Under the pieces are notes generated by a model, which was not told the DNA's origin, did not search any database, and worked only from the letters and a program-made list of their open reading frames with translations. The position numbers and the translations under genes were made by a program. Below are positions 4,577 through 63,562 of a stretch of 64,000 nucleotides of DNA, piece by piece. The DNA is taken from assembly GCF_002310495.1 (NCBI RefSeq), contig NZ_CP023344.1, positions 372,001 to 436,000 of the forward strand. Direction: 5' to 3'. Position 1 is the stretch's first letter, and each line of letters starts with the position of its first letter. The stretch comes from Nibricoccus aquaticus. GTDB taxonomy: Bacteria > Verrucomicrobiota > Verrucomicrobiia > Opitutales > Opitutaceae.

Positions 4577-4620
4577 CCGACCTACTCGCTACCCGCTACT
4601 CACTGCTCGCTACTTCTCCC
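4577..4620 (-). repeat. Modular short repeat, unit GCGAGTAG / AGTAGCG
   Basis: Intergenic tract between lptB and hprK made of imperfect repeats of CTACTCGCTAC read on the plus strand. Nearly the same tract (CTACTCGCTACCCGCTACTC) occurs inside the exonuclease-ligase fusion gene at 47378-47416, and a degraded copy at 17091-17120. Confidence 0.75.
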
Positions 4621-4627
4621 AAACCCC

Positions 4628-5638
4628 ATGCCCAAATCCATCCAAGGCATCACCGTCGCCCACTTCTTCGACACCTACCGCGAGCGCCTCAAGATGGAGC
4701 TCGTCCTCGGCGAGCCCGGCCTGCACCGCATGATCCGCGAGGGCTCCATCAACCGCCCCGCCCTCGCCCTCACTGGCTTCTTCAAATATTTCGCGAACAA
4801 ACGTATCCAGGTTCTGGGCGCGGCCGAGATGACCTACCTCAAGACGCTCGATCACGCCCGCCAGGTCGAGATCCTCCAGGAGATGGTCGAGCGCCAGATC
4901 CCCTGCCTCGTCCTCACGCGTAATTTCCACCCCACGCCCGCCATGCTCAGCGTCGCGAAGGAGAAAAACCTCCCCGTGTTCCGCACCACGCTGATCACGA
5001 TGAACTTCATCAACCTCGCCACCCTCTGCATCGACAACGAGTTCGCCCCCTCCGTCACCGAGCACGCCACCACCCTCGATATCCGCGGCATCGGCGTCAT
5101 GCTCCGCGGCTCCAGCGGCGTCGGCAAAAGCGAATGCGCCCTCGCCCTCATCGAGCGCGGCCACTCCCTCGTCGCCGACGACCTCACCGTCATCAAGCTC
5201 CTCGACGAACGCGAACTCATGGCCTCCTCCCGCCCGCTCAACCGCGGCTACATGGAGTGCCGCGGCATCGGCATCATCAATATCTCCGACATGTTCGGAG
5301 TGAAGAGCGTCCGCCCCGAGAAACGCATCGACCTCGTCGTCTCCCTCTTCGAATGGACTCCCGACGCCGTCGAGGAACGCACCGGCCTCGAAGAAAACTT
5401 CTACGAGATACTGGAGCTCAAAGTCCCCCACATCATCCTCTACGTCCGCCCCGGCCGCGACATGGCCCGCCTCGTCGAAGTCGCCGCCCTCACCCAAGCC
5501 CTCAAGAAAATGGGCCACGATCCCGCGAAAACTTTCAACGACCGCCTCATCGCTTACATGACGCAACAGTCCGAAACCCCCGCCCGCACCATCCGCCTCG
5601 ACCCCGATCGCAGCCGCTCGGAAGAAGACCGCTCCTGA
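4628..5638 (+). CDS. hprK: HPr kinase/phosphorylase HprK
   Basis: Phosphorylates and dephosphorylates a serine of the PTS protein HPr (or an NPr-like protein), linking carbon status to regulation. 336 residues: N-terminal DRTGG-like domain (about 1-130), then the kinase core with Walker A GSSGVGKS at 161-168, the catalytic VADD acids near 182-185, and the HprK signature MECRGIGIINI at 209-219. Full length for the family. It follows the lpt genes after an 82-bp gap that holds a REP hairpin and a short-repeat tract. No HPr or PTS enzyme gene is in the window. The ATG start gives the normal N-terminus; no clear ribosome site. Confidence 0.95.
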   Translation: MPKSIQGITVAHFFDTYRERLKMELVLGEPGLHRMIREGSINRPALALTGFFKYFANKRIQVLGAAEMTYLKTLDHARQVEILQEMVERQIPCLVLTRNFHPTPAMLSVAKEKNLPVFRTTLITMNFINLATLCIDNEFAPSVTEHATTLDIRGIGVMLRGSSGVGKSECALALIERGHSLVADDLTVIKLLDERELMASSRPLNRGYMECRGIGIINISDMFGVKSVRPEKRIDLVVSLFEWTPDAVEERTGLEENFYEILELKVPHIILYVRPGRDMARLVEVAALTQALKKMGHDPAKTFNDRLIAYMTQQSETPARTIRLDPDRSRSEEDRS

Positions 5639-5675
5639 CCCTCCGCCGCCTCTGCTCTTTCCTTTCCCTCCTATT

Positions 5676-5750
5676 CAAATTTCCGAACTCCGTGCTCTCC
5701 GTGTCATAGCTCTGTGCCCTCTGTGGCCCCTTTGAAACTCCGCAGCTCCG
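5676..5750 (-). repeat. Modular short repeat, unit CACAGAGG / CACGGAG
   Basis: Region between hprK and rph. Read on the minus strand it contains CACAGAGGGCACAGAG and CACGGAGAGCACGGAG, bracketed on the plus strand by GAAACTCCGCAGCTCCG on one side and TTTCCGAACTCCG on the other. Related tracts lie at 49220-49268 and 52190-52236. Confidence 0.75.
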
Positions 5751-5784
5751 GTTCCGCATCTTCCTACTTTCCTTTCCTTTTCGC

Positions 5785-6546
5785 ATGTCCACCACCGCCC
5801 GCCACGACGGCCGCACCGCCGACCAGCTCCGCACCATCACCTTCGAAGCCGACATCGCACCGCACGCCACTGGCTCGGTCCTCGTCAGCTTCGGCAAAAC
5901 CCGCGTGATCTGCGCCGCCACCATCGAGCCCGGCGTCCCCACCTGGATGAAACAGCAGGGCGTCAAAGGAGGCTGGCTCACCGCCGAGTACTCGATGCTC
6001 CCCTACAGCACCCACGAGCGCAAATCCCGCGACATCTCCCGCGGCAAGATCGACGGCCGCACCGTCGAGATCCAGCGCCTCATCGGCCGTTCCCTTCGCG
6101 CCGTCATCGACCTCAGCAAACTCGGGCAGAACACTCTCTGGCTAGATTGCGACGTCCTCCAGGCCGACGGCGGCACCCGCACCGCCTCTATCACCGGCGC
6201 CTACCTCGCCGCCCGCCTCGCCGTCCAAAAACTCCTCGACTCACAAAAACTCCGCGAGAATCCCCTCACCGATTCCGTTGCCGCCGTCAGCGTCGGCGTC
6301 GTCGCCGGCCGCGAGCTCCTCGACATCGCCTACCTCGAAGACAAAGACGCCGAAGTGGACTTCAACATCGTCATGACCGGCCAGGGCAAATTCGTCGAAG
6401 TCCAGGGCTCCGGCGAAGAAACCACCTTCAGCCACGACCAACTACAAAGTCTCTTAGTCCTCGCCCAAAAAGGCCTGAAAGAAGTCTCCGCCGCCCAAAC
6501 CGCCTTCCTCACCAAACAACTCCTCAGCACCCTAAAACTCGGCTGA
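5785..6546 (+). CDS. rph: Ribonuclease PH
   Basis: Phosphorolytic 3'-5' exoribonuclease that trims tRNA 3' ends. 253 residues, normal length, single RNase PH domain: the N-terminal RHDGRTADQLR (RxDGR family signature), the GGWLTAEYSMLPYSTHER block, the Arg-rich EIQRLIGRSLRAV helix, WLDCDVLQADGGTRTASITG (the strongly conserved phosphate-site region), and a C-terminal VEVQGSGEE. ATG start at 5785; repeat sequences fill the 146-bp gap upstream. The spacing from hprK suggests its own promoter, but none is clear. Confidence 0.97.
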   Translation: MSTTARHDGRTADQLRTITFEADIAPHATGSVLVSFGKTRVICAATIEPGVPTWMKQQGVKGGWLTAEYSMLPYSTHERKSRDISRGKIDGRTVEIQRLIGRSLRAVIDLSKLGQNTLWLDCDVLQADGGTRTASITGAYLAARLAVQKLLDSQKLRENPLTDSVAAVSVGVVAGRELLDIAYLEDKDAEVDFNIVMTGQGKFVEVQGSGEETTFSHDQLQSLLVLAQKGLKEVSAAQTAFLTKQLLSTLKLG

Positions 6547-6613
6547 ACTCCACGCTCATCTAATGGCCTCTGATCAATTCCACGCGGCCTCACCTAGCGG
6601 AGATATTTTCTTT

Positions 6614-6826
6614 ATGACACCCCCTAAAATATTCGGTCTAGCCGTCAGGATCACGGGCCTCGTAAGCCTGCTGTATATGTTGTCTGCCTCGGTTCTTCTT
6701 TTCGGCTTTGTTGGAGTACCAGCCTTCATGATCATCATGAAATTTCTGGTTTGGCTGGCCCTCACCATCTGGTTGCTACGGGGTGCACCCAATTTGGTTC
6801 GGTTCGCTTATCCCGATGAGCAATGA
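6614..6826 (+). CDS. Small two-span membrane protein of unknown function
   Basis: 70 residues from the ATG at 6614 (MTPPKIFGLAV), chosen because GGAG stands 12 bases upstream and the codons before it look non-coding; an in-frame start at 6563 would add 17 polar residues. Two hydrophobic segments, about 7-30 and 36-56, then a short charged tail ending PDEQ. No recognised family. Its AT-richer codon use differs from rph and resembles the next gene, which overlaps its stop codon region, so the two may have arrived together. Confidence 0.6.
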   Translation: MTPPKIFGLAVRITGLVSLLYMLSASVLLFGFVGVPAFMIIMKFLVWLALTIWLLRGAPNLVRFAYPDEQ

Positions 6827-6876
6827 CGGCTCGTGGTCTGAAGCCTGATCAAGTCCGCTCATTCAAGAACAACCCC

Positions 6877-7293
6877 ATGAAAACACTCCGCCTTTTTGCT
6901 GTATTGCTTCTGACATCCTTTACACCGCTTTTTTCGTCAGAGCCTCCAACCAAAGTTCGGCTGGAGATGTGGGAAGGGTGCCTCTGTCAGGGACCAAAGC
7001 ATGTGCGAACCTATGAGCAATTGAACAATGAACGCTCGAAGCGAATGGTTGTCGGCGTTGACGTGGCAGTCGGCCCCGAACAGCAGGGCTTATCTGCGTT
7101 TGCTTTGCTGAACCAGAGAGTCAGCGAAGATAAGCCACCCGCTGATCTCGCTTTTTATTGGATCGGCCTGGTCTATCGAAAGAGCAAAGATGGACTGTCG
7201 CATCCGATTGGTTTTCGCGGCTCCATGGCCAAACTTCAATCGTCCGAGTTGAAGGACGGTGATCTAGTGGTGTTCTTCAAAGAAGCTTTCTAA
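6877..7293 (+). CDS. Secreted or periplasmic hypothetical protein
   Basis: 138 residues from ATG 6877 (MKTLRLFAVLLLTSF), giving a clean signal peptide ending near FSSEPP. The frame is open upstream to 6823, but those codons would bury the signal. The mature part has two close cysteines (GCLCQG) after KVRLEMWE and no motif I recognise. Codon use is AT-richer than the flanking housekeeping genes. No partner or function is suggested by context beyond the small membrane protein just upstream. Confidence 0.6.
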   Translation: MKTLRLFAVLLLTSFTPLFSSEPPTKVRLEMWEGCLCQGPKHVRTYEQLNNERSKRMVVGVDVAVGPEQQGLSAFALLNQRVSEDKPPADLAFYWIGLVYRKSKDGLSHPIGFRGSMAKLQSSELKDGDLVVFFKEAF

Positions 7294-7463
7294 AGTTCAC
7301 GATTTCCGCATCAACACGGTACGCCAGCGCCCTCAACTGGACCGATGCCTCCATGGGCCGTCTCGCACCTCGCAATCTCGGCTTGTGCTGATCACCTTTG
7401 ACCACCTGTCCCACTGGCCCATCTCTTGCCGAAACCTCTTTCATACCTCGACCAATACCGCCC

Positions 7464-7851: not shown

Positions 7852-8802
7852 TCACACCCGCCTGAGCGCCGCCCGCATCCTCGGCAACCGCTCCGCCAGG
7901 ATCTCCCGCACTTCACCGAGCACCCGACGCAGCTCCGCCCCATCCGCCGCCACAATCTTCAAACTCCACGCCCCGCACCCGCCGCGCAGCGCGCTCACCC
8001 CCACCCACGCCCGCGCCCCGTGCAACGCCTCGATCCATTCCCTCCACGCCCCGCACTCCTCCAACTTGCGCGACACAATCACCACATTCCCAAAACAACA
8101 CGCCCCGCTCTCCGCGCTCGCTCCATTTTCCGCCGCCGCATTCGCGTCCATTCGCGTCCATTCGCGGTTAAAAACTCCGCCGCCTCCGCTTTCACCCTTC
8201 CCCCTTCCCTCTTCACTCTTCAGCTCGCCCACACCCGCCAGCTTCGCGAGCGCTTTCATCTCCTCCCCGCTCTGATCCAGCCGCTCCCGCAAAATCAATT
8301 CCCCGCCCACGCGCACGCTTAGCTCCAGCCGCAAACGCGACCACGACCACATCTCCCCGCGCGCGATCCGCCCCGGCATCAACAAATCCGCAAACGCGAT
8401 CTCCCCGCCCTCCGCCACCTCGATCTCCGTCACCTGCCGGAAACTCGACCGGTCATGCGGGACGAGGGGCTCCGGCAAAAACTCCAGCCACCCACCCGCC
8501 TCCACCGAAAATTTCTGCGACGCCACCGCCTCGCCCGCCCGCATATGGAAAACCCGGCTCGCACTCGGAGTCGTCACGAGCAACGCCGCGCCACTTCCCA
8601 CCGCGATCTCCGTCTCCAACTTATCTCCCTCCAAAATCCCCGCCGTCGGATTCACGACCTGCACGCGCAACGCCGCGCCCTCCTCGTCCCAGTAAGCCTT
8701 TCCCACATGAAACGGCGCGCGAAACGACTGCCCCGCCAGCACGGTTTTCCCGTTCTCACGCACCTCCGCGCGCAACTTCAGATGTCCGGAAAACTCACCC
8801 AT
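7852..8802 (-). CDS. ureD: Urease accessory protein UreD
   Basis: Scaffold of the UreDFG complex that delivers nickel to urease. 316 residues with UreD blocks such as GKAYWDEEGA, NPTAGILEGD, TPSASRVF and LEFLPEPLVPHDRSSF. Residues about 194-234 are not UreD-like: they are encoded by two short-repeat tracts (8190-8222 and 8139-8180), giving SEEGRGKGES and FNREWTRMDAN, and the frame stays open through them. The start codon lies in a perfect inverted repeat (8800-8816). Last gene of a ureF-ureG-ureD run whose structural partners (ureABC) and ureE are absent here. Confidence 0.88.
   Translation of the reverse strand: MGEFSGHLKLRAEVRENGKTVLAGQSFRAPFHVGKAYWDEEGAALRVQVVNPTAGILEGDKLETEIAVGSGAALLVTTPSASRVFHMRAGEAVASQKFSVEAGGWLEFLPEPLVPHDRSSFRQVTEIEVAEGGEIAFADLLMPGRIARGEMWSWSRLRLELSVRVGGELILRERLDQSGEEMKALAKLAGVGELKSEEGRGKGESGGGGVFNREWTRMDANAAAENGASAESGACCFGNVVIVSRKLEECGAWREWIEALHGARAWVGVSALRGGCGAWSLKIVAADGAELRRVLGEVREILAERLPRMRAALRRV
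8139..8180 (-). repeat. Modular short repeat inside ureD, unit CGCGAATGGA
   Basis: Three copies of ATTCGCGTCC/TTCGCGG on the plus strand followed by TTAAAAACTCCGC. Translated in the ureD frame as FNREWTRMDAN. Confidence 0.85.
8190..8222 (-). repeat. Modular short repeat inside ureD, unit GAAGAGTGAA / GGAAGGG
   Basis: Plus strand TTTCACCCTTCCCCCTTCCC then TCTTCACTCTTC. The same unit appears within the helicase gene at 49987-50020. Confidence 0.8.
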
Positions 8803-9584: not shown

Positions 9585-9629
9585 ATCATCAGTGTGCATC
9601 AGTGCTCATCAGTGGTTAAAAACTCCGCT
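9585..9629 (-). repeat. Modular short repeat, unit CACTGATGAG
   Basis: Three copies of ATCAGTG-type unit on the plus strand (CATCAGTGTGCATCAGTGC...) then GTTAAAAACTCCGC. Lies between ureG and ureF. A close relative is at 44636-44680. Confidence 0.85.
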
Positions 9630-17043: not shown

Positions 17044-17083
17044 CAATCCTGTGAATCGTGTTCATCCTGTCTAAAAACTCCGC
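17044..17083 (-). repeat. Modular short repeat, unit CAGGATGAA
   Basis: Plus strand CAATCCTGTGAATCGTGTTC then ATCCTGTCTAAAAACTCCGC. Same ATCCTGT family as 52145 and 63434, with the common AAAAACTCCG tail. Lies between the sigma factor and the ABC permease. Confidence 0.8.
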
Positions 17084-43008: not shown

Positions 43009-44649
43009 TCACAGCCCCGGCAACTCCGCCTGCCCGTTCCCCTTCGCCCGCGCCTCTGCTCCCGCGCCCGGCGGCACGCCGCCGTTTTTGCGGATCGTCT
43101 CCGCCCGCGCCTGGATCGCCTCCCGTGCCTTCGCATCGAGCCGCGCCAGATTTTTCACCTGCAAACCCATCCGCGGATTCGCCGCCAGCCGCCGCTCATG
43201 CCGCAGCAAAAAATCCCAGTACAACGTCGTGAATGGACACGCCCGCTCCCCCGTCGATTGCGCCGGATCGAAGCGGCACCCCGCGCACGCGTTGCTCATG
43301 CGTTTGATATAGTTGCCCGTCGCCACATACGGTTTCGACGCCATCACCCCGCCGTCCGCGTACTGCGACATCCCCAGCGTGTTCGGCAGCTCCACCCACT
43401 CCACCGCATCCACGTACACCGCCAGATACCACGCATGGATTTCCTGCGGCTTCACCCCGAGCATCAGCGAATAAAGCCCCGTCACCATCAGCCGCTGGAT
43501 GTGGTGCGCGTATCCGAGATCCAACGTCTGCCGGATCGCATCCCTTAAACATGCCATCGGCACTTCCCCCGTCCAATAAAACCCCGGCAGCGCCTCCTCC
43601 GCCTTCAGCGCGTTTCGCTCCACATACTCCGGCATGTGCAGCCAATAAACGCCCCGCACATACTCGCGCCACCCGAGGATCTGCCGGATAAATCCCTCGA
43701 CCGACGCCAGCGACGCCTTCCCTCCGCGATACGCCGCCTCCGCCGCCGCGATCACTTCACGCGGATCGAGCAGTTTCAGATTCATCGCCGCCGACAGCCG
43801 CGAATGAAACAGCCACGGCTCCCCCAACCAGATCGCATCCTGAAACTCCCCGAATCTCTCCAGCCGGTACTTCACAAAATCCTCCAGCGCCTCCCGCGCC
43901 TGCACCCGCGTCACCGGCCAGTCAAACGCCTCCAGACGCCCCGGATGCTTCGCGAAAATCCTCTCCACATCCGCGATTGCTCTGCGCGTCACCGCATCCG
44001 GCGGAAACCGTTTCGGCGCCCTCAACCCCTCCGGTCCGCTCTTCGCGAAACTCCCGCGATTCTCCGGATCGTAGTTCCACTGCCCGCCCTCCGGCTCTCC
44101 GTTCGCATCCAGCAGCACGCGGTGTTTCCGCCGCATTTCCCGATAAAAAAACTCCATCCGCAGCTGCTTCCGCCCCGCCGCGTGCGTCCGAAACTCCTCC
44201 AGCGAACACAGAAAATGTCGGTCCGCCCGCTCCTCCCACATCACACCGAGCTCGGCCGCCACCGCTTCCAGCGCCGCCCGCACCCGCCAGTCGCCCGGCT
44301 GCGTCACGATCATCCGCTCCGGCTTCAACCGCCTCACCGCCCGCGCCAGCTCCCCCGCCAGACTTCCCGAGTTTTCCTTGTCGCCGATTTCCGAGTACTC
44401 CACCCGCCAGCCCCGCCCGCGCAGTTCGTCGCGAAAATGCCGCATCGCCGCCAGGAACAACGCCGTCCTCGGCTGCGTGCTCCACACATGCGTCGACTCC
44501 TCCGCCACCTCCGCCATCCACACCGCATCCGTCGTCGCATCAAACCCCTCCAGCGCCGCCCCGCCCGCATCCAGCTGATCCCCCAGCACCACCACCAAAT
44601 TCCTCACCCCACCATTCAGCCGCTTCTTCTTTTCCGCATCAGTGTTCAT
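43009..44649 (-). CDS. FeS-bearing (6-4)-type photolyase (cryptochrome/photolyase-related)
   Basis: Up to 546 residues. Alpha/beta antenna-binding domain at the N-terminus (NLVVVLGDQLDAGG), helical FAD domain at the C-terminus. Four cysteines, 367, 455, 458 and 471, have the same spacing (88, 3, 13) that I recall for the [4Fe-4S] ligands of Agrobacterium PhrB, an FeS (6-4) photolyase. So light-driven repair of (6-4) photoproducts is the likely role. The annotated ATG lies inside a short-repeat element (44636-44680); the GTG 14 codons later (VRNLVVVLGDQ) may be the real start. Next to a CPD photolyase upstream and the epimerase fusion downstream. Confidence 0.87.
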   Translation of the reverse strand: MNTDAEKKKRLNGGVRNLVVVLGDQLDAGGAALEGFDATTDAVWMAEVAEESTHVWSTQPRTALFLAAMRHFRDELRGRGWRVEYSEIGDKENSGSLAGELARAVRRLKPERMIVTQPGDWRVRAALEAVAAELGVMWEERADRHFLCSLEEFRTHAAGRKQLRMEFFYREMRRKHRVLLDANGEPEGGQWNYDPENRGSFAKSGPEGLRAPKRFPPDAVTRRAIADVERIFAKHPGRLEAFDWPVTRVQAREALEDFVKYRLERFGEFQDAIWLGEPWLFHSRLSAAMNLKLLDPREVIAAAEAAYRGGKASLASVEGFIRQILGWREYVRGVYWLHMPEYVERNALKAEEALPGFYWTGEVPMACLRDAIRQTLDLGYAHHIQRLMVTGLYSLMLGVKPQEIHAWYLAVYVDAVEWVELPNTLGMSQYADGGVMASKPYVATGNYIKRMSNACAGCRFDPAQSTGERACPFTTLYWDFLLRHERRLAANPRMGLQVKNLARLDAKAREAIQARAETIRKNGGVPPGAGAEARAKGNGQAELPGL

Positions 44650-44680
44650 CAGTGCCCATCAGTGGTTAAAAATTCCGTCC
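44636..44680 (-). repeat. Modular short repeat, unit CACTGATGGG / CACTGATGAA
   Basis: Plus strand CATCAGTGTTCATCAGTGCC then CATCAGTGGTTAAAAATTCC. Relative of the 9585 element. Supplies the apparent ATG and first four codons of the FeS photolyase gene. Confidence 0.85.
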
Positions 44681-46286: not shown

Positions 46287-49082
46287 ATGTCCTCTTGGGA
46301 TGTTCAATTTCGCAACGGGATCTACCTCCCGCAAATCGACTGGTGGCTCGACGCCCACCACCCCGTCGAGCGCTCCTTCGTTTCCCACGCGCACTTCGAT
46401 CACCTCGCGCCGCACAAAGAAATTCTCTGCTCCGAAGGCACCGCCCGCCTCATGCGCGCCCGCATGAACACCGAACGCCGCGAACACGTCATCCCTTTCG
46501 GCCACACCGAACCACTCACGCCCGACACTACCGTCACGCTGCATCCCGCCGGCCACATCTACGGCTCCGCCCAAAGCCTCCTCGCGCACGCCGACCACGG
46601 CACGCTCCTGTACACCGGCGACTTCAAACTCCGCCGCGGCCTCTCCGCCGAACCCTGCGCCACCCCGCACGCCGACGTCCTCATCATGGAGACCACCTTC
46701 GGCCGCCCGCAGTACGTCTTCCCGCCCACCGAAAAAATCCTCGCCGACATCGCCGCCTTTTGCCGCGCCGCCCTCGAAGACAATGAAACGCCCGTACTTT
46801 TCGGATACAGCCTCGGCAAATCCCAGGAACTCCTCAGCGGCCTCGCCGCCGCGAAACTCCCGGTGATGCTCCACCCGCAAACCCACAAGCTCACCCAGAT
46901 CTACGAAGAGCTCGGTCTCACCTTCCCGCCCTACTGCGAATTCTCCGCCGCCGAACTCTCCGGCCACGTCGTCATCTGCCCGCCCCAGGCCGCGCAGTCT
47001 CCCTTCCTCAAAAAAATCCGCGCCCGCCGCACCGCCATGATCACCGGCTGGGCCCTCGATCCCGGCGCGATCTTCCGCTACCAATGCGACGCCGCCTTCC
47101 CGCTCTCCGATCACGCCGACTTCCCAGACCTACTCCGCTTCGTCGAACTCGTCGCCCCCAAACGCGTCCTCACCCTCCACGGCTTCTCCTCCGACTTCGC
47201 CCGCACCCTCCGCGACCGCGGCATCGAAGCCTGGGCCATCAACCAGGACAACCAACTCGAGATGCCACTCGCCGTCTCCGCCCCAATTACCAACTACGAA
47301 CTACAAACTCCCTCCGATTCCCCTTCGATCCCTTCGCCCGACCTTCGCGAGACAACTCCTTCCGACATTCCCTCCGACCTACCCACTACTCGCTACCCGC
47401 TACTCGCTACTTCTCCTTCCGACCTCACCTCCTTCGCGACAACCGCCGACCGCATCCGCGCCATCCCCTCCAAACTCGAAAAAATTGCCCTCCTCCGCGA
47501 CTACCTCGTCTCGCTCCCATCCGAAGAAGATGCCGCCCTCGCCGCCGTCTTCTTCACCGGCCGCCCCTTCCCCCAATCCGATCCGCGCACACTTAACATC
47601 GGCTGGTCCCTCCTTCGCCGCGCCATCCTCGAAGTCACCCGCCTTAACGTCGCCGACTTCAAGCAAACGTATCTGCGCTACAGCGACAGCGGCGACACCG
47701 CCGAAGCCCTGCTCACCGGCCGCACCACACCCGAGCCATTCACTCTCTCCGAAACCGCCGACTTCTTCGCCGCCCTCGCCGCCGCCCGCGGCCCCGCCGC
47801 CAAGCTCGACCTCTTCCAAACCCGTCTCGCCCGCCTCACGCCCGCCGCCGCGAAATACCTCATCAAGATCATCACCACCGATCTCCGCATCGGCCTCAAA
47901 GAAGGCCTCGTCGAAGAAGCCATCGCCGCCGCCACGAGCCGCCCTCTCGAATCCGTCCGAGAAGCCAACATGCTCAGCGGCGACCTCGCTCAAGTCGTCC
48001 GCGCCGCCCGCCGAGACGAACTCGCCAGCATCTCGCTCCGCATCTTCCACCCGCTCCAGTTCATGCTCGCGAGCCCCGAGCCCACAGCCGAAGCGATCCT
48101 CGAACGCCTCACCCCACCCGTCTGGCTCGAAGAAAAATACGACGGCATCCGCTGCCAGCTCCACAAACAAGGCCCGTGCGTCGAACTCTTTTCCCGCGAC
48201 CTCCACAACATCACCGCCCAATTCCCCGACCTCGCCCGCGCCGCCGCCTCGCTCCCCGCCGACGTCATCCTCGACGGCGAGTTGCTCGCCTGGCGCGACG
48301 GCCGCGCCCTCCCCTTCGCCGAACTCCAAAAACGCCTCGGTCGCAAAGGCGGCGACGACTTCTTCCTAGGCCAAGAGATTCCCATTTCCTTCTCCACCTA
48401 CGACCTCCTCTGGCTGAACGGAAATTCACTCCTAAAATCCCCTCTCCAAGACCGCCGTACCGCCCTCGAATCCATTCTTAATTCATCATTCCTAATTCAT
48501 AATTCCGCCCTCTACCTTGCCCCGGTCAAACCAGCCCAAACGGCGGGCGAAATCGACGCCGCCTTCCTCGCCTCCCGCCAGCGCGGCAACGAAGGCCTCA
48601 TGGCCAAAGATCCACAAAGCCCCTACACGCCCGGCCGTCGTGGACTCGCCTGGCTCAAACTCAAAAAAGCCTACGCCACGCTCGACGTCGTCGTGACCGG
48701 CGTCGAGTACGGCCACGGCAAACGACGCGGCGTCCTCAGCGATTACACATTCGCCATCCGCGACGACGCCACCGGCGCCCTCCTCACCGTCGGCAAAGCC
48801 TACTCCGGTCTCACCGATGCCGAGATCGCCCAATACACCGAACACTTCCTCGCCAACACCCTCGAAGAACACGGTCGCTTCCGCACCGTCACGCCCGACG
48901 TCATACTCGAAGTCGCTTTCGACTCCATTCAGGAAAGCAAACGCCACCCCAGCGGCTACGCCCTCCGCTTCCCGAGAATCGCCCGCATCCGCACCGACAA
49001 GACCCTCGCCGACATCGACACCCTCGAAACCTGCCGCCGCCTCGCCGGCCCCAACGCGTTCGCCCCAACCAAAACCGTTTGA
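46287..49082 (+). CDS. Ligase-associated DNA exonuclease fused to ATP-dependent DNA ligase
   Basis: 931 residues from ATG 46287 (MSSWDVQFRNGIYLPQIDWW); an open frame runs upstream to 46143 but has poor content. Residues 1-325: metallo-beta-lactamase/SNM1-like exonuclease with HAHFDH at 34-39. Residues about 385-931: DNA ligase with N-terminal DNA-binding domain, adenylated Lys617 in EKYDG, EGLMAKD at 769-775, WLKLKK at 789-794, and an OB domain. In most bacteria these are separate genes. The joining stretch (about 331-383, TNYELQTPSDSPSIP and TTRYPLLATSPSDLTS) is encoded by short-repeat tracts, and a third tract reads SSFLIHNSAL at about 733-741. Followed by the helicase and pdeM of the same repair module. 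Confidence 0.9.
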   Translation: MSSWDVQFRNGIYLPQIDWWLDAHHPVERSFVSHAHFDHLAPHKEILCSEGTARLMRARMNTERREHVIPFGHTEPLTPDTTVTLHPAGHIYGSAQSLLAHADHGTLLYTGDFKLRRGLSAEPCATPHADVLIMETTFGRPQYVFPPTEKILADIAAFCRAALEDNETPVLFGYSLGKSQELLSGLAAAKLPVMLHPQTHKLTQIYEELGLTFPPYCEFSAAELSGHVVICPPQAAQSPFLKKIRARRTAMITGWALDPGAIFRYQCDAAFPLSDHADFPDLLRFVELVAPKRVLTLHGFSSDFARTLRDRGIEAWAINQDNQLEMPLAVSAPITNYELQTPSDSPSIPSPDLRETTPSDIPSDLPTTRYPLLATSPSDLTSFATTADRIRAIPSKLEKIALLRDYLVSLPSEEDAALAAVFFTGRPFPQSDPRTLNIGWSLLRRAILEVTRLNVADFKQTYLRYSDSGDTAEALLTGRTTPEPFTLSETADFFAALAAARGPAAKLDLFQTRLARLTPAAAKYLIKIITTDLRIGLKEGLVEEAIAAATSRPLESVREANMLSGDLAQVVRAARRDELASISLRIFHPLQFMLASPEPTAEAILERLTPPVWLEEKYDGIRCQLHKQGPCVELFSRDLHNITAQFPDLARAAASLPADVILDGELLAWRDGRALPFAELQKRLGRKGGDDFFLGQEIPISFSTYDLLWLNGNSLLKSPLQDRRTALESILNSSFLIHNSALYLAPVKPAQTAGEIDAAFLASRQRGNEGLMAKDPQSPYTPGRRGLAWLKLKKAYATLDVVVTGVEYGHGKRRGVLSDYTFAIRDDATGALLTVGKAYSGLTDAEIAQYTEHFLANTLEEHGRFRTVTPDVILEVAFDSIQESKRHPSGYALRFPRIARIRTDKTLADIDTLETCRRLAGPNAFAPTKTV
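47284..47316 (-). repeat. Modular short repeat inside the exonuclease-ligase linker, unit TAGTTGGTAATT / GTAGTTCG
   Basis: Plus strand CAATTACCAACTACGAACTA then CAAACTCCCTCCG. In frame it gives ITNYELQTPSD. Has the common A-rich plus TCCG tail. Confidence 0.8.
47378..47416 (-). repeat. Modular short repeat inside the exonuclease-ligase linker, CTACTCGCTAC unit
   Basis: CCTACCCACTACTCGCTACC then CGCTACTCGCTACTTCTCC. Same as the tract before hprK (4577). Translated as TTRYPLLATSPS. Confidence 0.85.
48473..48508 (-). repeat. Modular short repeat inside the ligase domain, unit GAATTATGAATTA
   Basis: Plus strand CATTCTTAATTCATCATTCC then TAATTCATAATTCCGCC, reading SSFLIHNSAL in frame. It lies between conserved parts of the adenylation domain. 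Confidence 0.8.
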
Positions 49083-49084
49083 AT

Positions 49085-49107
49085 CGCGAAGACGCGAAGA
49101 CGCTAAG
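49085..49107 (+). repeat. Inverted copy of the GCGAAGAC short repeat
   Basis: CGCGAAGACGCGAAGACGC then TAAG, opposite in direction to the other elements. Pairs with 49286-49308 (22 of 23 positions). The only element seen with this orientation. Confidence 0.75.
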
Positions 49108-49149
49108 AGTCCAAAACATCACTCATCCGACGTGCTTACTCGTCTCTCA

Positions 49150-49200
49150 CCTGCGCCTCTTCGTTCCCTTCGGTCTCTTCTGTGAAACTTCCGAACTCCG
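49150..49200 (-). repeat. Degraded short repeat, GAAGAG / GAACGAAG unit
   Basis: Between the ligase and the helicase, plus strand CTGCGCCTCTTCGTTCCC then TTCGGTCTCTTCTG, and the tail GAAACTTCCGAACTCCG. Less regular than the others. Confidence 0.5.
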
Positions 49201-49219
49201 TCCCCACTCTCTACGACTC

Positions 49220-49268
49220 CAAGCTCCGTGTCCTCTGTGCCTCTGTGGTTAAAACAAAAACTCCGATT
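49220..49268 (-). repeat. Modular short repeat, unit CACAGAGG
   Basis: Plus strand CTCCGTGTCCTCTGTGCCTC then TGTGGTTAAAACAAAAACTCCG. Same family as 5676 and 52190. Confidence 0.85.
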
Positions 49269-49271
49269 CCT

Positions 49272-49317
49272 TCCTTCGCTCCGACCTTAGCGTCTTCGCG
49301 TCTTTGCGCTTAACCTA
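49272..49317 (-). repeat. Modular short repeat, unit GCGAAGAC
   Basis: Almost identical to 7754-7800 over about 47 bp including flanks. Plus strand CTTAGCGTCTTCGCGTCTTT then GCGCTTAACCTAA. Just upstream of the helicase gene. Confidence 0.85.
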
Positions 49318-49343: not shown

Positions 49344-52049
49344 ATGTTCACCCGCGTAGAAAAACCCGCCCTCACCGAGCCGCGCCTCTTCTCCGCCCTC
49401 CACCCCGAACTCGCCACCTGGTTCGCCAACAAATTCACCCACTTCTCCCCCGGCCAGCTCACCACCGTCCCCGAAATCCTCGCCGGCCACTCCGCCCTTC
49501 TCTGCTCGCCCACCGGTACCGGCAAAACCCTCGCCGCCTTCCTCGGCGTCTTCGATTACCTCGCCAAAGCTCACGACCGCAAAGAACTCCCCGCCGGACT
49601 AGTCGCCATCTACGTCTCGCCTCTCCGCGCGCTCACGTACGACCTCCAAAAAAATCTCCAAAGCCCGCTCGACGAACTCGGCTGGAAACACATCCGCGTC
49701 GCTTCCCGCAGCGGGGACACCACGCCCAAAGAGCGCGCCGCCCAACGCCGCAAGCCCCCGCACATCCTCGTCACCACGCCCGAAAGTCTGACGCTTCTCC
49801 TCAGCCAGCCGACCTGGATCGCCGCCTTCAAAACCGTCCGCTTCCTCATCATCGACGAACTCCACGCCCTCGCCGAAAACAAACGCGGCTCCCTCCTCAT
49901 GGCCTCCGCCGAGCGCCTAGAAGACGTCATCGCAACCGCGCACCGTTCTCCGACGCCCTCCACCCCGGTTTCCGGCTCATCCTCCGCTTTCACTCTTCCC
50001 TCTTCACCCTTCACTCTTCAACGCATCGGCCTCTCCGCCACCGTCGCCCCACTGGAAACGGTCGCCGAATTCCTCGTCGGCACCGACCGCCCCTGCCGCA
50101 TCATCGACATCGCCCCCTTCAAACGCGCCCACATCGAGCTCTTCTCCCCGCTCCGCAAAAATCCCTACCCACCCGCCGGCTGGGGCGGCGCCCGTCTCCA
50201 CAAAGAACTCTGCACGCTGCTCCTCCAGAAACGCACCACGCTCATCTTCACCAACACCCGCAGCGGAGCCGAAAGCATCGGCCTCCGCCTGAAACAACTC
50301 CTCCCTGACCTCGCTCCGCAGATCGAAGTCCACCACGCCTCGCTCGACCGTGCCGTCCGCCTCGAAGTCGAAGACCGACTCAAACGCGGCGAACTCCGCG
50401 CCGTGGTCTGCTCCACCAGTCTCGAACTCGGCATCGATATCGGTTCCATCGATACAGTCGTCATGGTCTCCGCGCCCAAAGGCGTCTCCCGCGCCCTCCA
50501 ACGCATCGGCCGCTCCGGCCACTCGATGAAGCAGACCAGCCACGGTGTCCTCTTCGCGACCAACATCAACGACCTCGTCGAGTGCACCGTCACCGCGCAG
50601 ATGATGGAGCGCCGCGAACTCGAACCCGTCCGCCTCCACGCCGATCCGCTCGATGTCCTCGCCCAACATCTCGTCGGCCTCGCCATCTTCAGCTCCGTCA
50701 CGCCCGACGAAGCCTTCGCCCTTCTCCGCCGCGCCCAGCCCTTCAAGGAACTCACCCGCGAAAAGTTCGACCGCGTTCTCCGCTACCTCGAAGGCGGCGG
50801 CGTGTCACTGGAACGCAACTACCGCGACGTCTTCGGCAAGATCCGCCTTGTCGACGGGCAACTCACGATCCCGTCGCCGCGCACCGCCCGCGACTTCTAC
50901 CAAAACGTCGGCACCATCGCCGCCTCACCGATGATCCAGGTCCGCCTCGGCCGCCGCAATTTAGGCCAGGTCGAGGAAATGTTCATGAAGGGCCTTCGCC
51001 CCGGAGACACTTTCGTCCTCAACGGCCGCACCGTCCGCCTCATCGAGACGCGTCTCCTCACCGCGAAAGTCGCCGAAGCTAAAAACTCCCTCCCGACCGT
51101 CCCCCGTTGGAACGCCAACAAAATGCCCCTCACCAGCGGCATCGCTCTCGAAGTCGCCCGCTTCCGCACCGAACTCGCTTCCCGCCTGCCCGCGCCCCCC
51201 GCGAATTCCCCCACGTCGATCAATCTCCACGCGTCACTCGCCGCCAACGTTGGCCGGATCGAGTCCGCCACCGACTGGCTTGCCACCGGCTACTCACTCT
51301 CCCGCGCGAACTCCGAAGCCATCGTCCGCCACTTCCTTCTTCAGTCCCAAATTTCCCGCGTCCCCACTACCGGCTTCTTCCTCATCGAGCGCTACGAAGA
51401 ACGCGGCCTCCTGCACTATTTCGTTCACTCCCTCATAGGTCGTTCGCCCAACGACGCGCTCTCCCGCATCATCGTCTGGCGCGTCAACCAGATCGTCGGC
51501 GGCAACGCCCGCGTCACCATCGATGACTACGGCTTTCTTCTCACCGTCGCACCTTTCCAAGCCATCGATCTGCCCACCTGGAAAAAACTCTTCGTGCGCG
51601 AGGGCGCCGAGGAAGCCCTTCGCTCCGCCCTCTCCGAAGCCGACCTCGTCAAATGGCAATTCCGCGGCGTCGCTCAAACCGGCCTCATGGTCCCACGCCG
51701 CGTCCACGGCCAGGAACGCGGCGCCCGCTCACTCCAGTGGAGCGCCGAGATCATCTTCGACGTCCTCCGCCGCCACGAGCCCGATCACCCGCTCCTTGAA
51801 GAAGCCTACGCCGAAGCCACGCTCCGCTTCCTCGATACACCCCGCGCCCTCCAATTCCTCGACGACGTCCACAACGTCCCGTGGGAACTCGTCCCCACCG
51901 ACCGCGTCAGCCCGTTTTCCTTTGGCATCTTCGTCAGTAAAATCAAAGAGACCATGACCCTCGAAGACCCCGAAACCACCATCGAGCGCCTCTACCACGA
52001 CAGGTACGGCGCCGACCTCGCAAACGTCCCGTCCGCGAATGACCAATGA
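49344..52049 (+). CDS. Ligase-associated DNA damage response DEXH-box helicase (Lhr-like)
   Basis: 901 residues. Helicase core: Walker A SPTGTGKT at 55-62, DELH box 171-174, SAT motif 231-233, C-terminal helicase domain with QRIGRSGHS-type motif VI, then a winged-helix and the large Lhr-type C-terminal region (DUF4145-like). Such helicases are found next to the ligase, exonuclease and PdeM genes in one repair module, as here. Residues about 200-226 are encoded by a short-repeat tract (SSSAFTLPSSPFTL) inserted between the DELH and SAT motifs. ATG start 261 bp after the ligase, in a gap full of repeats. Confidence 0.93.
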   Translation: MFTRVEKPALTEPRLFSALHPELATWFANKFTHFSPGQLTTVPEILAGHSALLCSPTGTGKTLAAFLGVFDYLAKAHDRKELPAGLVAIYVSPLRALTYDLQKNLQSPLDELGWKHIRVASRSGDTTPKERAAQRRKPPHILVTTPESLTLLLSQPTWIAAFKTVRFLIIDELHALAENKRGSLLMASAERLEDVIATAHRSPTPSTPVSGSSSAFTLPSSPFTLQRIGLSATVAPLETVAEFLVGTDRPCRIIDIAPFKRAHIELFSPLRKNPYPPAGWGGARLHKELCTLLLQKRTTLIFTNTRSGAESIGLRLKQLLPDLAPQIEVHHASLDRAVRLEVEDRLKRGELRAVVCSTSLELGIDIGSIDTVVMVSAPKGVSRALQRIGRSGHSMKQTSHGVLFATNINDLVECTVTAQMMERRELEPVRLHADPLDVLAQHLVGLAIFSSVTPDEAFALLRRAQPFKELTREKFDRVLRYLEGGGVSLERNYRDVFGKIRLVDGQLTIPSPRTARDFYQNVGTIAASPMIQVRLGRRNLGQVEEMFMKGLRPGDTFVLNGRTVRLIETRLLTAKVAEAKNSLPTVPRWNANKMPLTSGIALEVARFRTELASRLPAPPANSPTSINLHASLAANVGRIESATDWLATGYSLSRANSEAIVRHFLLQSQISRVPTTGFFLIERYEERGLLHYFVHSLIGRSPNDALSRIIVWRVNQIVGGNARVTIDDYGFLLTVAPFQAIDLPTWKKLFVREGAEEALRSALSEADLVKWQFRGVAQTGLMVPRRVHGQERGARSLQWSAEIIFDVLRRHEPDHPLLEEAYAEATLRFLDTPRALQFLDDVHNVPWELVPTDRVSPFSFGIFVSKIKETMTLEDPETTIERLYHDRYGADLANVPSANDQ
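49987..50020 (-). repeat. Modular short repeat inside the helicase gene, unit GAAGAGTGAAGGGTGAA
   Basis: Plus strand CTTTCACTCTTCCCTCTTCA then CCCTTCACTCTTCAAC, in frame as FTLPSSPFTLQ. Same family as 8190-8222. Confidence 0.85.
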
Positions 52050-52144: not shown

Positions 52145-52187
52145 CCAATCCTGTTCATCCTGTAATCCTGTCCAAAAATTTCCGTCC
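52145..52187 (-). repeat. Modular short repeat, unit CAGGATGAA / CAGGATTA
   Basis: Plus strand CCAATCCTGTTCATCCTGTA then ATCCTGTCCAAAAATTTCCG. Same family as 10151, 17044 and 63434. Confidence 0.85.
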
Positions 52188-60623: not shown

Positions 60624-60660
60624 AAAAAAAATGGAGCACGATCCCGTGCTCCATTTTTTT
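60624..60660. terminator. Bidirectional Rho-independent terminator
   Basis: Stem AAAAAAAATGGAGCACG/CGTGCTCCATTTTTTT with a short loop, T-runs on both strands. Serves the MamK-like gene and the convergent minus-strand gene. Confidence 0.92.
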
Positions 60661-60807
60661 GCCCATCAGTCCTGCGTAAGGAATTCAAAGTTGTGCGATA
60701 CTTCAGCCTGTAACCAGGCTCGCTCGACAATCCATTCCGAACCTCGCCGACGGTGCTGCAAGAAAAGTGCCTTGAACCTAACTCACCGCGCTAATTGGCA
60801 TGTTGCT

Positions 60808-61254: not shown

Positions 61255-61264
61255 TGAAGGTTCA

Positions 61265-62344
61265 TCACCCCGCGACCGGATAACTCCCCAGCCACTTCAC
61301 CATCGTGCAAAATTGCTTCAGCTCCGTGATCGCTTCACGCATCGCCGGATCGTCGTGATGCCCTGCCACATCGAGGAAGAAATAGTAATCCCACGCCCGC
61401 CGCTTGCTCGGCCGCGATTCGATCTTCGACAAATTGATCCCGCGATCCGCCAGCGGCTTCAGCATCTTCAAAAGCGCGCCCGAATTCGCCGCGTCTTCAT
61501 CACCGAGCGAGATCAACAGGCTCGTCATATCACGCCCGTTGCCGACCGGCCCCGACGGCTTTTTTCCGATGACGAAAAACCGCGTCGTATTGTTCGCCTT
61601 GTCCTGAATGCCCTTCGCCACCACCGGCACGCCATAGTGCGTCGCGGCGATTTCCGGCGCCACGCCCGCCGCGCCTTCCTCATCGCGCGCGATCTGCACC
61701 GACCGCGCGGTGCTCGCCGTATCGATCAACTGCGCGTGCGGTAAATGCCGCTGCAGCCACATGCGGCACTGCGCGAGCGCCTGATCCTTCGAGTAAACCT
61801 TCGTGATCTTCTCCAGCGGCGATTTCGAGATCAACGTGTACGAGATCTCCAGATAAAGCTGCGCGACGATCTTCAGATCCGATCCGACAAACTGATCCAG
61901 CGCATCGCGCACCGACCCTTCCGTCGAGTTCTCAATCGGGATGATCCCGTAATCCGCTTCGCCCTTCTCCACCGCCGTGAAAATGTCCGCAAACGTCGAG
62001 AACGCGTGATAGTTAACGCTCGCTCCGAATTTCTTAAGCGCCGCCTGATGACTGTTCGTCGCCTCCGGCCCGAGATACGCGATGAGCAATGGCTGCTCCA
62101 ACGCGATGGCCGCCGACATGATCTCACGATAGATAGCGCGCAGCGCGTCATCCTTGATCGGTCCTTGGTTCAGCCCGGTAACTTTGCGGAAAACCGCGTC
62201 TTCACGCTCGGCAACATAGATCTGCCCACCCGAGCCGCGCTTCGCTTTCCCAATCTCGGCGGCAACCGCCAGACGTTGGTTGAGCAGCTCCACGATCTGC
62301 TGGTCAAGCGCATCGATCTTCTCGCGAAAAGGTGTGAGGTCCAT
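61265..62344 (-). CDS. pheA: Bifunctional chorismate mutase/prephenate dehydratase (P-protein)
   Basis: Makes phenylpyruvate from chorismate for phenylalanine. 359 residues: AroQ chorismate mutase (about 1-85, IDALDQQIVELLNQRLAVAAE), prephenate dehydratase (about 90-270, YLGPEATNSHQAAL, IPIENSTEGSVRDALD, NNTTRFFVIG with the TRF catalytic block), and a C-terminal ACT domain (about 285-355, ESRPSKRRAWDYYFFLDV) that binds phenylalanine. Complete. scpB lies upstream on the same strand with 20 bp between. Confidence 0.96.
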   Translation of the reverse strand: MDLTPFREKIDALDQQIVELLNQRLAVAAEIGKAKRGSGGQIYVAEREDAVFRKVTGLNQGPIKDDALRAIYREIMSAAIALEQPLLIAYLGPEATNSHQAALKKFGASVNYHAFSTFADIFTAVEKGEADYGIIPIENSTEGSVRDALDQFVGSDLKIVAQLYLEISYTLISKSPLEKITKVYSKDQALAQCRMWLQRHLPHAQLIDTASTARSVQIARDEEGAAGVAPEIAATHYGVPVVAKGIQDKANNTTRFFVIGKKPSGPVGNGRDMTSLLISLGDEDAANSGALLKMLKPLADRGINLSKIESRPSKRRAWDYYFFLDVAGHHDDPAMREAITELKQFCTMVKWLGSYPVAG

Positions 62345-62364
62345 GACGTGCGTCGTTTGGCTGA

Positions 62365-63357
62365 TTAAACAGGTTTCTCTTCCGACTCATCTGCCGCCGC
62401 CGCTTCATCCGCATCACTCGCGTCTTCTGACGCAGCCTCAGAGACCACAGTTTCCACTGAGGATTCAACAGACTCTTCCGCCGACTCCGACATCGCATCC
62501 TGCGAGTGATCGTGATGCTCCACCGACACCGCTTCGAGATTGGGCGAATCACCTTCGCCCTCCTCCAACGGCAGTCCCATCTCCGCATCCGTCGGCGTCT
62601 TGGGATTGATCGCGTTCTTCATCCACTCGTCGATCTGCCGCGGCGACAACACGTCCGACGCCGGCAACTCCACGAGCGATTTCACACCGACAAAATCCAA
62701 AAACTTGTCCGTCGTCCCATACTGCAACGGACGTCCCGGCAAATCCGCGCGCCCCGTGATATAAACGAGCTCGCGCTCCATCAACTTGTTCAACCCCGCC
62801 TCCGCCGACACACCACGAATCGCCTCCAGCTCCGTGCGCGTCACCGGCTGACGGTACGCCACGATCGCGAGCGTCTCGAGCGCCGACTGCGTCAACTTCA
62901 CCGGCGCAGGCTCATCACGCTGGATACGAATCCACCGCGCGAAACGCGGATGCGTCACGATGCGAAATCCCGTCGGTCCCTCGATCAGCAGATAAATATC
63001 GTTCGCCACGCGCAGCTCTTCTCCGATCGCCGCCATCGCCTCGCGAATCTGCGTCGCCGTGATCAGCGATGGCACATCCTGATAAAGCTCCGCGTCCTTT
63101 TCTTCCGGCGAAACCACGGCAACCTCAGTCGCCTCCACCGAGCCCGCCGTAGCCTCTGGCATCTGGCTTCCGGCTTCCAGCTTCTCTTCCCCGCCAGTCT
63201 CCGCAGTCGCTGCGCTCTCAGTTTCGCCTTCGTTCACCACCGGCAAAACCGCCTGGTCATGAAAGCGCGCGAAGACCGCCTGAACGTCCTTAACCGAAAG
63301 CGGCTGGCTCGAAGAAAAGAGCAGCGCCTTGAGCACTTTTTGCAGATTGAAAGCCAT
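62365..63357 (-). CDS. scpB: Segregation and condensation protein B
   Basis: Partner of ScpA and SMC in chromosome organisation. 330 residues from ATG 63357 (MAFNLQKVLKALLFSSSQ); the open frame reaches far upstream but has no coding character. Two winged-helix domains; conserved QSALETLAIVAYRQPVTRTELE and IRGVSAEAGLNKLMERELV. Longer than usual: an Ala/Glu insertion about 50-90 (TAETGGEEKLEAGSQMPE) and an acidic Ser/Glu/Ala-rich tail about 245-330. scpA is not in the window. Confidence 0.93.
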   Translation of the reverse strand: MAFNLQKVLKALLFSSSQPLSVKDVQAVFARFHDQAVLPVVNEGETESAATAETGGEEKLEAGSQMPEATAGSVEATEVAVVSPEEKDAELYQDVPSLITATQIREAMAAIGEELRVANDIYLLIEGPTGFRIVTHPRFARWIRIQRDEPAPVKLTQSALETLAIVAYRQPVTRTELEAIRGVSAEAGLNKLMERELVYITGRADLPGRPLQYGTTDKFLDFVGVKSLVELPASDVLSPRQIDEWMKNAINPKTPTDAEMGLPLEEGEGDSPNLEAVSVEHHDHSQDAMSESAEESVESSVETVVSEAASEDASDADEAAAADESEEKPV

Positions 63358-63433
63358 GCGGTAAAGCCGGTCAGTGAATGCGGCGCGCTCCCGGTGAAGC
63401 AACCCCAATTTCCCCGCTTCCCATCTTCCTCCT

Positions 63434-63478
63434 CCAATCCTGTTAGTCCCTCTTAATCCTGTCCAAAAATTCCGACCT
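63434..63478 (-). repeat. Modular short repeat, unit CAGGATTAA
   Basis: Plus strand CAATCCTGTTAGTCCCTCTT then AATCCTGTCCAAAAATTCCGACC. Same family as 10151, 17044, 52145. Confidence 0.85.
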
Positions 63479-63489
63479 CCTCCGCTCCG

Positions 63490-63562
63490 CCACTTCCTCT
63501 CTGCATCTTCCGCTTCCGCCCCTCCGCGCCTCCGCGATCCCCCTTCCTCAGCCTCCGCGATC
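63490..63562 (-). repeat. Degraded short repeat, unit GCGGAGG
   Basis: Plus strand CGCCCCTCCGCGCCTCCGCG then GATCC, followed after a gap by CAGCCTCCGCGATCC. Adjacent to the ATCCTGT element. Confidence 0.6.

Follow-up and report, generated by a model that had tools for sequence, protein, structure and literature searches.

The window studied here is a stretch of 64,000 nt of the Nibricoccus aquaticus genome (G000:C1:372,001-436,000; contig NZ_CP023344.1), which consists of one contig of 4,730,447 bp. The window contains numerous tracts of short direct repeats, described in a first-pass annotation as a family of modular elements with a common TCCG tail, and re-inspection of the sequence confirmed that the tracts are present. 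They sort into two classes. Those of the first class, referred to here as tail-bearing, consist of approximately three copies of a 7-nt word (ATCAGTG, ATTCGCG, ATCCTGT or CTCTGTG in the window) with a period of 9-10 nt, and end in GTTAAAAA or CCAAAAA, often followed by [CT]TCCG. Those of the second, the heptamer class (CTACTCG, AATTCAT and TTCACTC), repeat with a period of 7 and lack an end of that type. The earlier statement that a repeat body is usually followed by an A-rich stretch and the tail is therefore accurate for the first class and not for the second. The mapped set (Table 1) comprises seven tail-bearing tracts, one complete inverted pair, six heptamer tracts and, near 5690, one degraded tract; two further heptamer-like tracts (46017 and 63150) were left out of it. 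A search of the window against Rfam gave 0 matches. The main subject of this report is the relationship of the tail-bearing tracts to genes of the GxxExxY family, which encode a small PD-(D/E)XK-fold nuclease.

The tail-bearing tracts of the window are very probably single arms of GxxExxY elements. The overall reading offered here, to which we assign a probability of roughly 0.8, is that these tracts are solo arms of such elements, that those built of ATCAGTG are right-hand arms, and that the heptamer tracts belong to a separate class. The GxxExxY element with its word arms is apparently an undescribed, tiny mobile element that occurs in many phyla. A complete element measures approximately 450-500 bp and consists of a gene of approximately 130 codons, encoding the nuclease, between two inverted arms, with the outer ends (T)TTAACC on the left and GGTTAA(A) on the right. 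In each arm a 7-nt word occurs about three times with a period of 9-10 nt, and an in-frame ATG is sometimes situated inside the left arm. The word varies from copy to copy, and the two arms of one copy share it; the words observed include CTCTGTG, CTCCGTG, CTTTGCG, CTTCGTG, ATCTGCG, ATCCGTG, ATCAGTG, ATTCGTG, CTTCGCG and ATCCTGT, as well as others. Terminal inverted repeats are present in the full elements, not in the solo arms.

Inverted-arm scores were determined for 61 unique full GxxExxY genes, obtained from 62 hidden Markov model matches. The median score was 41, as compared with 18 for outer flanks situated 200-400 bp further out (Mann-Whitney p 6e-19) and 17 for mismatched locus pairs. 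Not one of 60 outer flanks exceeded the threshold. The scores of 27 of the 61 genes lay above the 99th percentile of the mismatched pairs, which often share words, and in 33/61 the gene's own partner arm was unbeaten by any other. A second set comprised 29 of 30 cross-phylum loci, one locus being excluded because its flank was short (the genes of L490 and L506 had already been counted in the first set, as L235 and L204). Here the medians were 39 and 16, and scores of 35 or above were obtained for 19/29 loci and for 1/27 outer flanks (p 1e-8); the high-scoring loci include archaeal, spirochaete, cyanobacterial, Nitrospirae, Aminicenantes, acidobacterial and armatimonad examples. At a score of at least 35, then, inverted arms are present at both ends of 43/61 and 19/29 GxxExxY genes. 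Among the matches listed from a scan of species genomes, an inverted partner was found within 250 bp upstream in 38 of 127 word tracts and downstream in 0/127, and 261 of 399 within-tract comparisons showed agreement in the variable letter of the word (160 ± 9 in shuffled data).

All of the words in the tail-bearing tracts of the window, and in its inverted pair, have exact counterparts in the two arms of at least one GxxExxY gene: ATCAGTG at L466, L476 and L459; ATTCGCG at L467; ATCCTGT at L474 and L483; CTCTGTG at L439, L148 and L486; and CTTCGCG at L457 and L478. The source genome itself possesses two GxxExxY genes, at 343,907 (L447) and 4,665,562 (L466). Both lie outside 372,001-436,000, and no GxxExxY gene was found inside the window, the tail-bearing content of which consists of solo arms and one gene-less pair. 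The layout of L466 is GTTTCAACCACTTATTTCCACTGATGGACACTGAT, gene, CATAAGTGTTCTTCAGTGCCCATCAGTGGTTAAAAAAATTCCG, with an in-frame ATG (identified by eye) within the left arm. The window tract at 9588 aligns to the L466 right arm over 24 columns, and that at 44638 does so over 31 columns, with the TTCCG tail included and a 2-nt gap in the A-run (Table 1). In the sampled part of the source genome, all of the ATCAGTG tracts compared (8/8) are nearer to the L466 right arm than to the left. The two arms of the gene-less pair, 49082-49107 and 49286-49311, are complementary at 24 of 26 letters. A stretch just downstream of the 49082 arm was also tried as its inverted partner and was rejected (score 16), the actual partner being situated further on.

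The protein encoded by the gene between the arms in genome G001 (L419/L424) matches the GxxExxY model TIGR04256 with 126.8 bits (cut-off 35) and PF13366, of the PD-(D/E)XK nuclease superfamily, with 117.8 bits. The element's gene is thus a member of families whose library entries (NCBIfam for TIGR04256; PDDEXK_3 in Pfam) name the family without a function. Residues were aligned for nine sequences, the tenth (L239) being divergent and left out. Residues E36, D76, K88, Q100 and Y104 (L148 numbering) are invariant in the nine, as are G33 and Y39 of the name-giving motif, and the matching active-site columns are 95 to 100% conserved across the 61 genes. The predicted structure (predicted local distance difference test score 93.3; predicted template modelling score 0.85) has as its best solved match 4ic1 (SSO0001), which we take to be a Cas4 (Z 9.3, root-mean-square deviation 3.2, 99 aligned residues). 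The next matches, with Z values of 5 to 7.5, are to restriction-like, Cas4-like, Hjc and lambda-exonuclease-type folds. Since the best Foldseek E-value was 2.1e-3, the structural match indicates the superfamily and not the function. The GxxExxY protein shares with Cas4 the RecB-type PD-(D/E)XK residues with Q...Y; unlike Cas4, with its iron-sulphur cluster cysteines, the nine GxxExxY sequences have no conserved cysteine column. Searches of the PADLOC (anti-phage) and PHROGs (phage) libraries gave no match for two GxxExxY copies.

The distribution of the words was examined in 57 genomes, namely the source genome and 56 relatives. The pattern ATCNGTGN{2,3}ATCNGTGGTTAAA was found in 25 of the 57, with 0 to 81 copies in each genome, and the reversed control was found in 0/57. 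Word counts and GxxExxY counts are correlated across these genomes (rho 0.52, p 4e-5) and within the family (rho 0.40, p 0.013). Words and gene are both present in 24 genomes, words only in 1, gene only in 15 and neither in 17 (Fisher 5e-5). In G019, words at 3,216,978(-) and 3,217,456(+) flank a GxxExxY gene at 3,217,044-3,217,385, and on contig 276 of G021 words at 1,715(-) and 2,126(+) flank one at 1,765-2,109. The three-word form was detected in at least 120 stretches in GTDB species genomes. According to the record titles, the matches listed, mostly metagenome-assembled genomes, derive from Verrucomicrobiota, Planctomycetota, Bacteroidota, Cyanobacteriota, Spirochaetota, Acidobacteriota, Armatimonadota, Nitrospirota, Pseudomonadota, Bacillota and several candidate phyla, and include one Chlamydiae and one Methanosarcinales metagenome-assembled genome as well as named isolates of Chryseobacterium, Pedobacter, Phormidium and Pelagicoccus. 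A GxxExxY gene was found in 44 of 49 genomes picked from these matches, mostly outside the Opitutaceae; 3 of the 14 control genomes gave weak matches, none exceeding the cut-off. The word query gave 0 matches in phages and one weak match in plasmids, and a two-word pattern was present in 104 stretches of viral contigs. On a closed Bacteroides finegoldii plasmid, an annotated GxxExxY gene lies between CACCACAGAGGACGCAGAGGACACGGAG and CTCTGTGACCTCTGTGTCCTCTGTGGTG (arms identified by eye).

In seven genomes (L438, L439, L440, L449, L450, L455 and L460) the element is situated between what appear, by eye, to be gatA and gatB, and the letters of its word differ among the seven. These elements constitute a set suited to testing paired change of the arms.

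Empty sites and target duplications had been proposed in the first-pass annotation as a check on its reading, and the check proved positive at two sites. Ten tract loci of G001 were taken for comparison with G069, which belongs to the same genus; 8 flanks were queried, 6 sites were located and 2 clear empty sites were obtained. At the first (L416/L428), two genes that overlap in G069 (by eye) are split in G001 by approximately 200 bp comprising a word arm and another palindrome. The junction sequence GGAGCGGCG[C/A]GCATGAGCACG is present at both ends of the insert, a 21-nt duplication with one mismatch, and both genes are intact. At the second (L421/L427), G001 has an insert of approximately 300 bp that carries both arms and is bordered on each side by ATGAAA, a sequence present once in G069. 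Among the remaining sites, the gap at L415/L425 is occupied in G001 by an ATCCGTG arm and in G069 by CTACTCG heptamers; L419/L424 has arms in both genomes, with the gene between them in G001 and no match to the G001 GxxExxY part in the G069 stretch examined; and L420/L429 was uninformative.

Palindromic repeats (GGTAGGCGAAGCC..., CGTCGCTC...GAGCTATGGCGG and CCGGGGTAGGTGGCGTGCT...) were also seen nested with, or adjoining, word arms at L081-L085 in G019 and at L416 in G001.

The tracts of the window are not chance occurrences. With up to two mismatches allowed, the pattern GTGGTTAAAAAYTCCG gave 62 matches in the source genome, versus 1 for the reversed control. The common tail is likewise real in this genome, because 39 of 66 sampled elements have TCCG no more than 10 nt after the body, as against 4,434 of 67,325 intergenic same-strand positions (6.6%); the enrichment of the tail beside repeat bodies, which the first-pass annotation had suggested checking, is thereby borne out. 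It is a local feature, however. Among the matches listed from the species-genome scan, some of which are from Opitutaceae, TCCG was found in 11 of 133 copies and the conserved end was GTTAAA; TCCG does not serve the whole family as an attachment site. TCCG was also considered as part of a target duplication and rejected; it is present on both sides in 27/64 tracts, but the preceding letter agrees in 9 of those 27.

Hairpin bodies of the GGCCATTGGCC...CGCCCCATTGGCG type at L006, L011, L023 and L026 of the source genome share a AGTGGTTAAAAA-TCCG end (with GTGGTCAAAAA in L026), and other bodies may therefore use this end.

A strict strand rule is apparent in the source genome. With at most one mismatch, the + strand has 25 matches, confined to 0.27-1.99 Mb, and the - strand has 12, confined to 2.29-4.45 Mb, such that 37/37 obey the rule. 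Samples of 20 kb had a strong GC skew, of -0.12 to -0.35 in one half of the genome and of +0.13 to +0.29 in the second half. The skew switches near 2.1 Mb and again near 4.48 Mb, and dnaA, as identified by eye, occupies coordinate 1, approximately 0.24 Mb from one of the two switches. Of 66 sampled tracts, 64 have their sense on the C-rich strand, both exceptions being without words by eye, and all 11 heptamer pattern matches in the first samples (some of them overlapping) were on that strand also. The first samples contain 45 tracts: 23 are flanked by genes that share a strand, 13 are in mixed contexts, 4 are between two opposite genes, 3 are within genes (2 antisense, 1 sense) and 2 are at an edge. 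The rule follows the replication half, and not the neighbouring genes. As a search for 16S genes in the source genome found none, the orientation of PF00009 translation-factor genes was used to assign replication polarity. Six of the eight matches are on the G-rich strand, all six within 0-2.1 Mb, and the other two, in the other half, are on the C-rich strand. On the basis of those six, the replication origin is tentatively placed near 2.1 Mb, far from dnaA, with the C-rich side as the lagging strand. A search for dif near the skew switches gave nothing convincing.

Several observations weigh against the interpretation given above. The source genome has two full copies of the element, versus 64 tracts in the 15% of it that was sampled. 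Scores below 35 were obtained for 18/61 and 10/29 GxxExxY genes, three of the low-scoring members of the second set being from Chryseobacterium, and clear inverted arms were seen (by eye) in 1 of 4 plasmid copies. Counts from a laxer outer-flank control and from the arms were, respectively, 17 and 7 for ATTCGCG, 37 and 14 for CTTCGCG, 20 and 9 for CTTTGCG, and 5 and 4 for ATCCTGT; since the outer-flank counts are no lower than the arm counts, these four words rest on single loci. The correlation between arm word and protein is weak (Mantel 0.21), albeit one reached by 0 of 2000 permutations, and five of the 49 word-bearing genomes have no GxxExxY gene. One target duplication measures 21 nt, with one mismatch, and the other 6 nt, and at both sites the insert contains more than one element. 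With regard to strand, 5 of 25 two-mismatch matches break the rule in the source genome, and no general rule emerges elsewhere: local skew was negative at 58 and positive at 45 of the 103 word loci used (of 120; 6 with both strands and the rest shorter than 4 kb were left out), and GxxExxY genes were on the C-rich strand in 14 cases and the G-rich strand in 21 at 35 cross-phylum loci, and in 32 and 18 cases, respectively, at 50 loci of relatives. The placement of the leading strand is opposed by the 189 of 332 called genes on the C-rich strand and by the two contrary PF00009 matches. Finally, movement by GxxExxY is a proposal drawn from sequence comparison.

The GxxExxY nuclease is probably the mover of the element. 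It would bind the three repeats of its own word in each arm, which are spaced by approximately one turn of the helix, and would cut at the outer end, whereupon the element could move. The freed strand might then enter single-stranded DNA at the replication fork, on the lagging side if the origin has been placed correctly. Solo arms may represent one-ended insertions, or else remnants of full copies that lack the gene and the left arm; a single orthologous site carries the gene in G001 and arms alone in G069. The wider proposition is more tentative, and may or may not hold in full: that of a minimal mobile element, undescribed and prokaryote-wide, composed of one Cas4-like nuclease gene and inverted three-word arms, the nuclease of which reads its own word, the words changing in pairs and single arms being copied in trans into single-stranded DNA at the fork, which would give all copies a common orientation in strongly skewed genomes.

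It is also conceivable, but unlikely, that GxxExxY is a passenger or domesticated nuclease, and that the arms are the mobile repeats of another agent, or structural or regulatory hairpins involved, for example, in expression control. The small number of full copies relative to solo arms fits such an arrangement, as do the other hairpin bodies that share the tail (L006, L011, L023 and L026). It does not readily explain why, in distant phyla, the word varies between copies and yet matches in both arms, or why the gene is present in 44/49 genomes picked from the listed matches by their words. Host sites of fixed replication polarity kept by selection, similar to FtsK-orienting polar sequences (KOPS) or Chi, would account for an orientation that tracks the replication half of the source genome regardless of gene direction; they are very unlikely, given the patchy occurrence of the tracts (0 to 81 copies over 57 genomes), the lack of a general strand rule elsewhere, and the empty sites with target duplications. 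There is a slim chance that the words were copied from an RNA template by a retro-element or a telomerase-like reverse transcriptase, the A-rich end being a tail like that of short interspersed nuclear elements. Tandem units that agree within a tract, one fixed end and the strand rule of the source genome would be expected of such a process, but counts of reverse transcriptase genes do not follow those of the tracts (rho 0.06, 57 genomes) and several tract-rich genomes have none. Repetitive extragenic palindromic (REP) sequences moved by a Y1 transposase of the REP-associated tyrosine transposase (RAYT) type are similarly short, intergenic, multicopy and sometimes palindromic, and Y1 counts are correlated with the tracts over the 57 genomes (rho 0.34, p 0.009). 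That explanation is nonetheless extremely improbable, since the correlation within the family is not significant (rho 0.21, p 0.2), tracts occur in Y1-free genomes, one tract-free genome has 49 Y1 matches, and the word arms flank a different gene. Ordinary microsatellites, formed by replication slippage at chance seeds, have short tandem units too, and are contradicted by a 24-letter word pattern shared by many phyla, a fixed end and inverted partners on one side only.

REP/RAYT systems and miniature inverted-repeat transposable elements (MITEs) resemble the GxxExxY elements in being short non-autonomous repeats with inverted ends and a gene-bearing relative in the same genome. The GxxExxY elements differ from REP/RAYT systems in that their gene encodes a PD-(D/E)XK nuclease and not a Y1 transposase, and from both REP/RAYT systems and MITEs in that their arms are three tandem words whose identity varies by copy, and in that single arms are widespread. 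No description of the word repeats or of GxxExxY elements was found in the literature searched, most subscription journals being outside it. Papers in that literature that name GxxExxY mention it in passing, and flanking word arms or mobility do not feature in their available text. If the interpretation is correct, GxxExxY elements would be a likely source of recurrent short intergenic repeats that lack an explanation in bacteria and archaea; under the wider proposition, much of the unexplained 'word' repeat content of environmental genomes would derive from them. A catalogued nuclease family without an assigned function would gain a testable role, in mobility, with its own arms as substrate; DNA-word specificity and protein could be read as pairs over many lineages; and the insertion route becomes testable through the strict strand rule of a genome with strong skew.

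The heptamer tracts (CTACTCG, AATTCAT and TTCACTC) are a separate insertion class. In the first-pass annotation, different bodies with a common tail were attributed to one mechanism of spread. This view is retained for the tail-bearing tracts, each of whose words recurs in the two arms of at least one GxxExxY gene, and abandoned for the heptamer units: CTACTCG and TTCACTC were each found in both arms of 0/88 GxxExxY genes, and AATTCAT in 3/88, with no exact copy. The loop of the Lhr-type helicase that holds the TTCACTC tract is not present in two solved relatives with which it was compared. Among orthologues, the loop is short in G071 and G012, carries a different word array in G003, and is of middle length with no word arrays by eye in G033, G068 and G005. 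The corresponding ligase loop in G003 carries a hairpin and CTCAACC heptamers (L120 was left out of this comparison). Because the helicase and ligase loops (window; L089, L123) carry different word arrays in different genera, they look like recurrent insertion spots inside genes.

The nearest described repeats to this class, as far as the available text of the source allows a comparison, are the TAACTGA direct repeats of Beggiatoaceae, Cyanobacteria and Bacteroidetes (MacGregor 2015, PMC4679880), which likewise form tandem heptamer tracts. In that text they are patchy across phyla, with horizontal transfer suspected and the mechanism not evident. Tandem 7-nt units are shared also with the short tandemly repeated repetitive (STRR) heptamers of cyanobacteria, to judge from the text available on these. 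The tail-bearing tracts, with a period of 9-10, do not have the tandem 7-nt unit of the STRR/TAACTGA type, and in addition differ from the TAACTGA repeats, as these are presented in the text available, by their GTTAAA end and by the gene between inverted arms; neither 'GxxExxY' nor 'nuclease' appears in the main text of PMC4679880.

Table 1. Repeat tracts mapped in the window, with positions counted from its first nucleotide
Position	Strand	Feature	Remarks
9588..9627	+	Solo right arm, ATCAGTG x3, end GTTAAAAACTCCG	23/24 aligned letters as in L466 right arm
44638..44677	+	Solo right arm, ATCAGTG x3, end GTTAAAAATTCCG	29/29 aligned letters as in L466 right arm
8140..8179	+	Solo arm, ATTCGCG x3, end GTTAAAAACTCCG	Antisense within script-called gene; word in both L467 arms
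17045..17082	+	Solo arm, ATCCTGT, end CTAAAAACTCCG	L474 GxxExxY arms use ATCCTGT, outer end TTTTTTTGGACAGGAT
52146..52184	+	Solo arm, ATCCTGT x3, end CCAAAAATTTCCG	Word as in L474 arms
63436..63474	+	Solo arm, ATCCTGT (one copy decayed), end CCAAAAATTCCG	Antisense within script-called gene
49082..49107	-	Left arm (CGCGAAGACGCGAAGACGCTAAG) of complete gene-less inverted pair	
49286..49311	+	Right arm (CTTAGCGTCTTCGCGTCTTTGCGCTT) of the 49082 pair	Between ligase-fusion and Lhr-type genes
49223..49265	+	Solo arm, CTCTGTG/CTCCGTG, end GTTAAAACAAAAACTCCG	Nested within pair 49082-49311
5688..5730	+	Degraded CTCCGTG/CTCTGTG arm, end GTGGCCCC	Identified by eye
4582..4614	+	Heptamer tract, CTACTCG	
47379..47411	+	Heptamer tract, CTACTCG	In frame, linker of nuclease-ligase fusion gene
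48473..48506	+	Heptamer tract, AATTCAT	In frame, loop of ATP-dependent ligase domain
49989..50020	+	Heptamer tract, TTCACTC	In frame, loop of Lhr-type helicase
8189..8224	+	Heptamer tract, TTCACTC/TTCCCTC	Directly after ATTCGCG arm
47282..47311	+	Heptamer-like tract, CCAATTACCAACTACGAACTACAAACT	Same nuclease-ligase linker as 47379 tract

Among the heptamer-flanked reading frames of the loci examined, no 'four helix bundle' S23-type protein was seen by eye, no family search having been aimed at it. In the IMG/VR viral contigs L301, L310 and L336, inverted pairs of heptamer tracts enclose reading frames, and the heptamer class may therefore also come paired.

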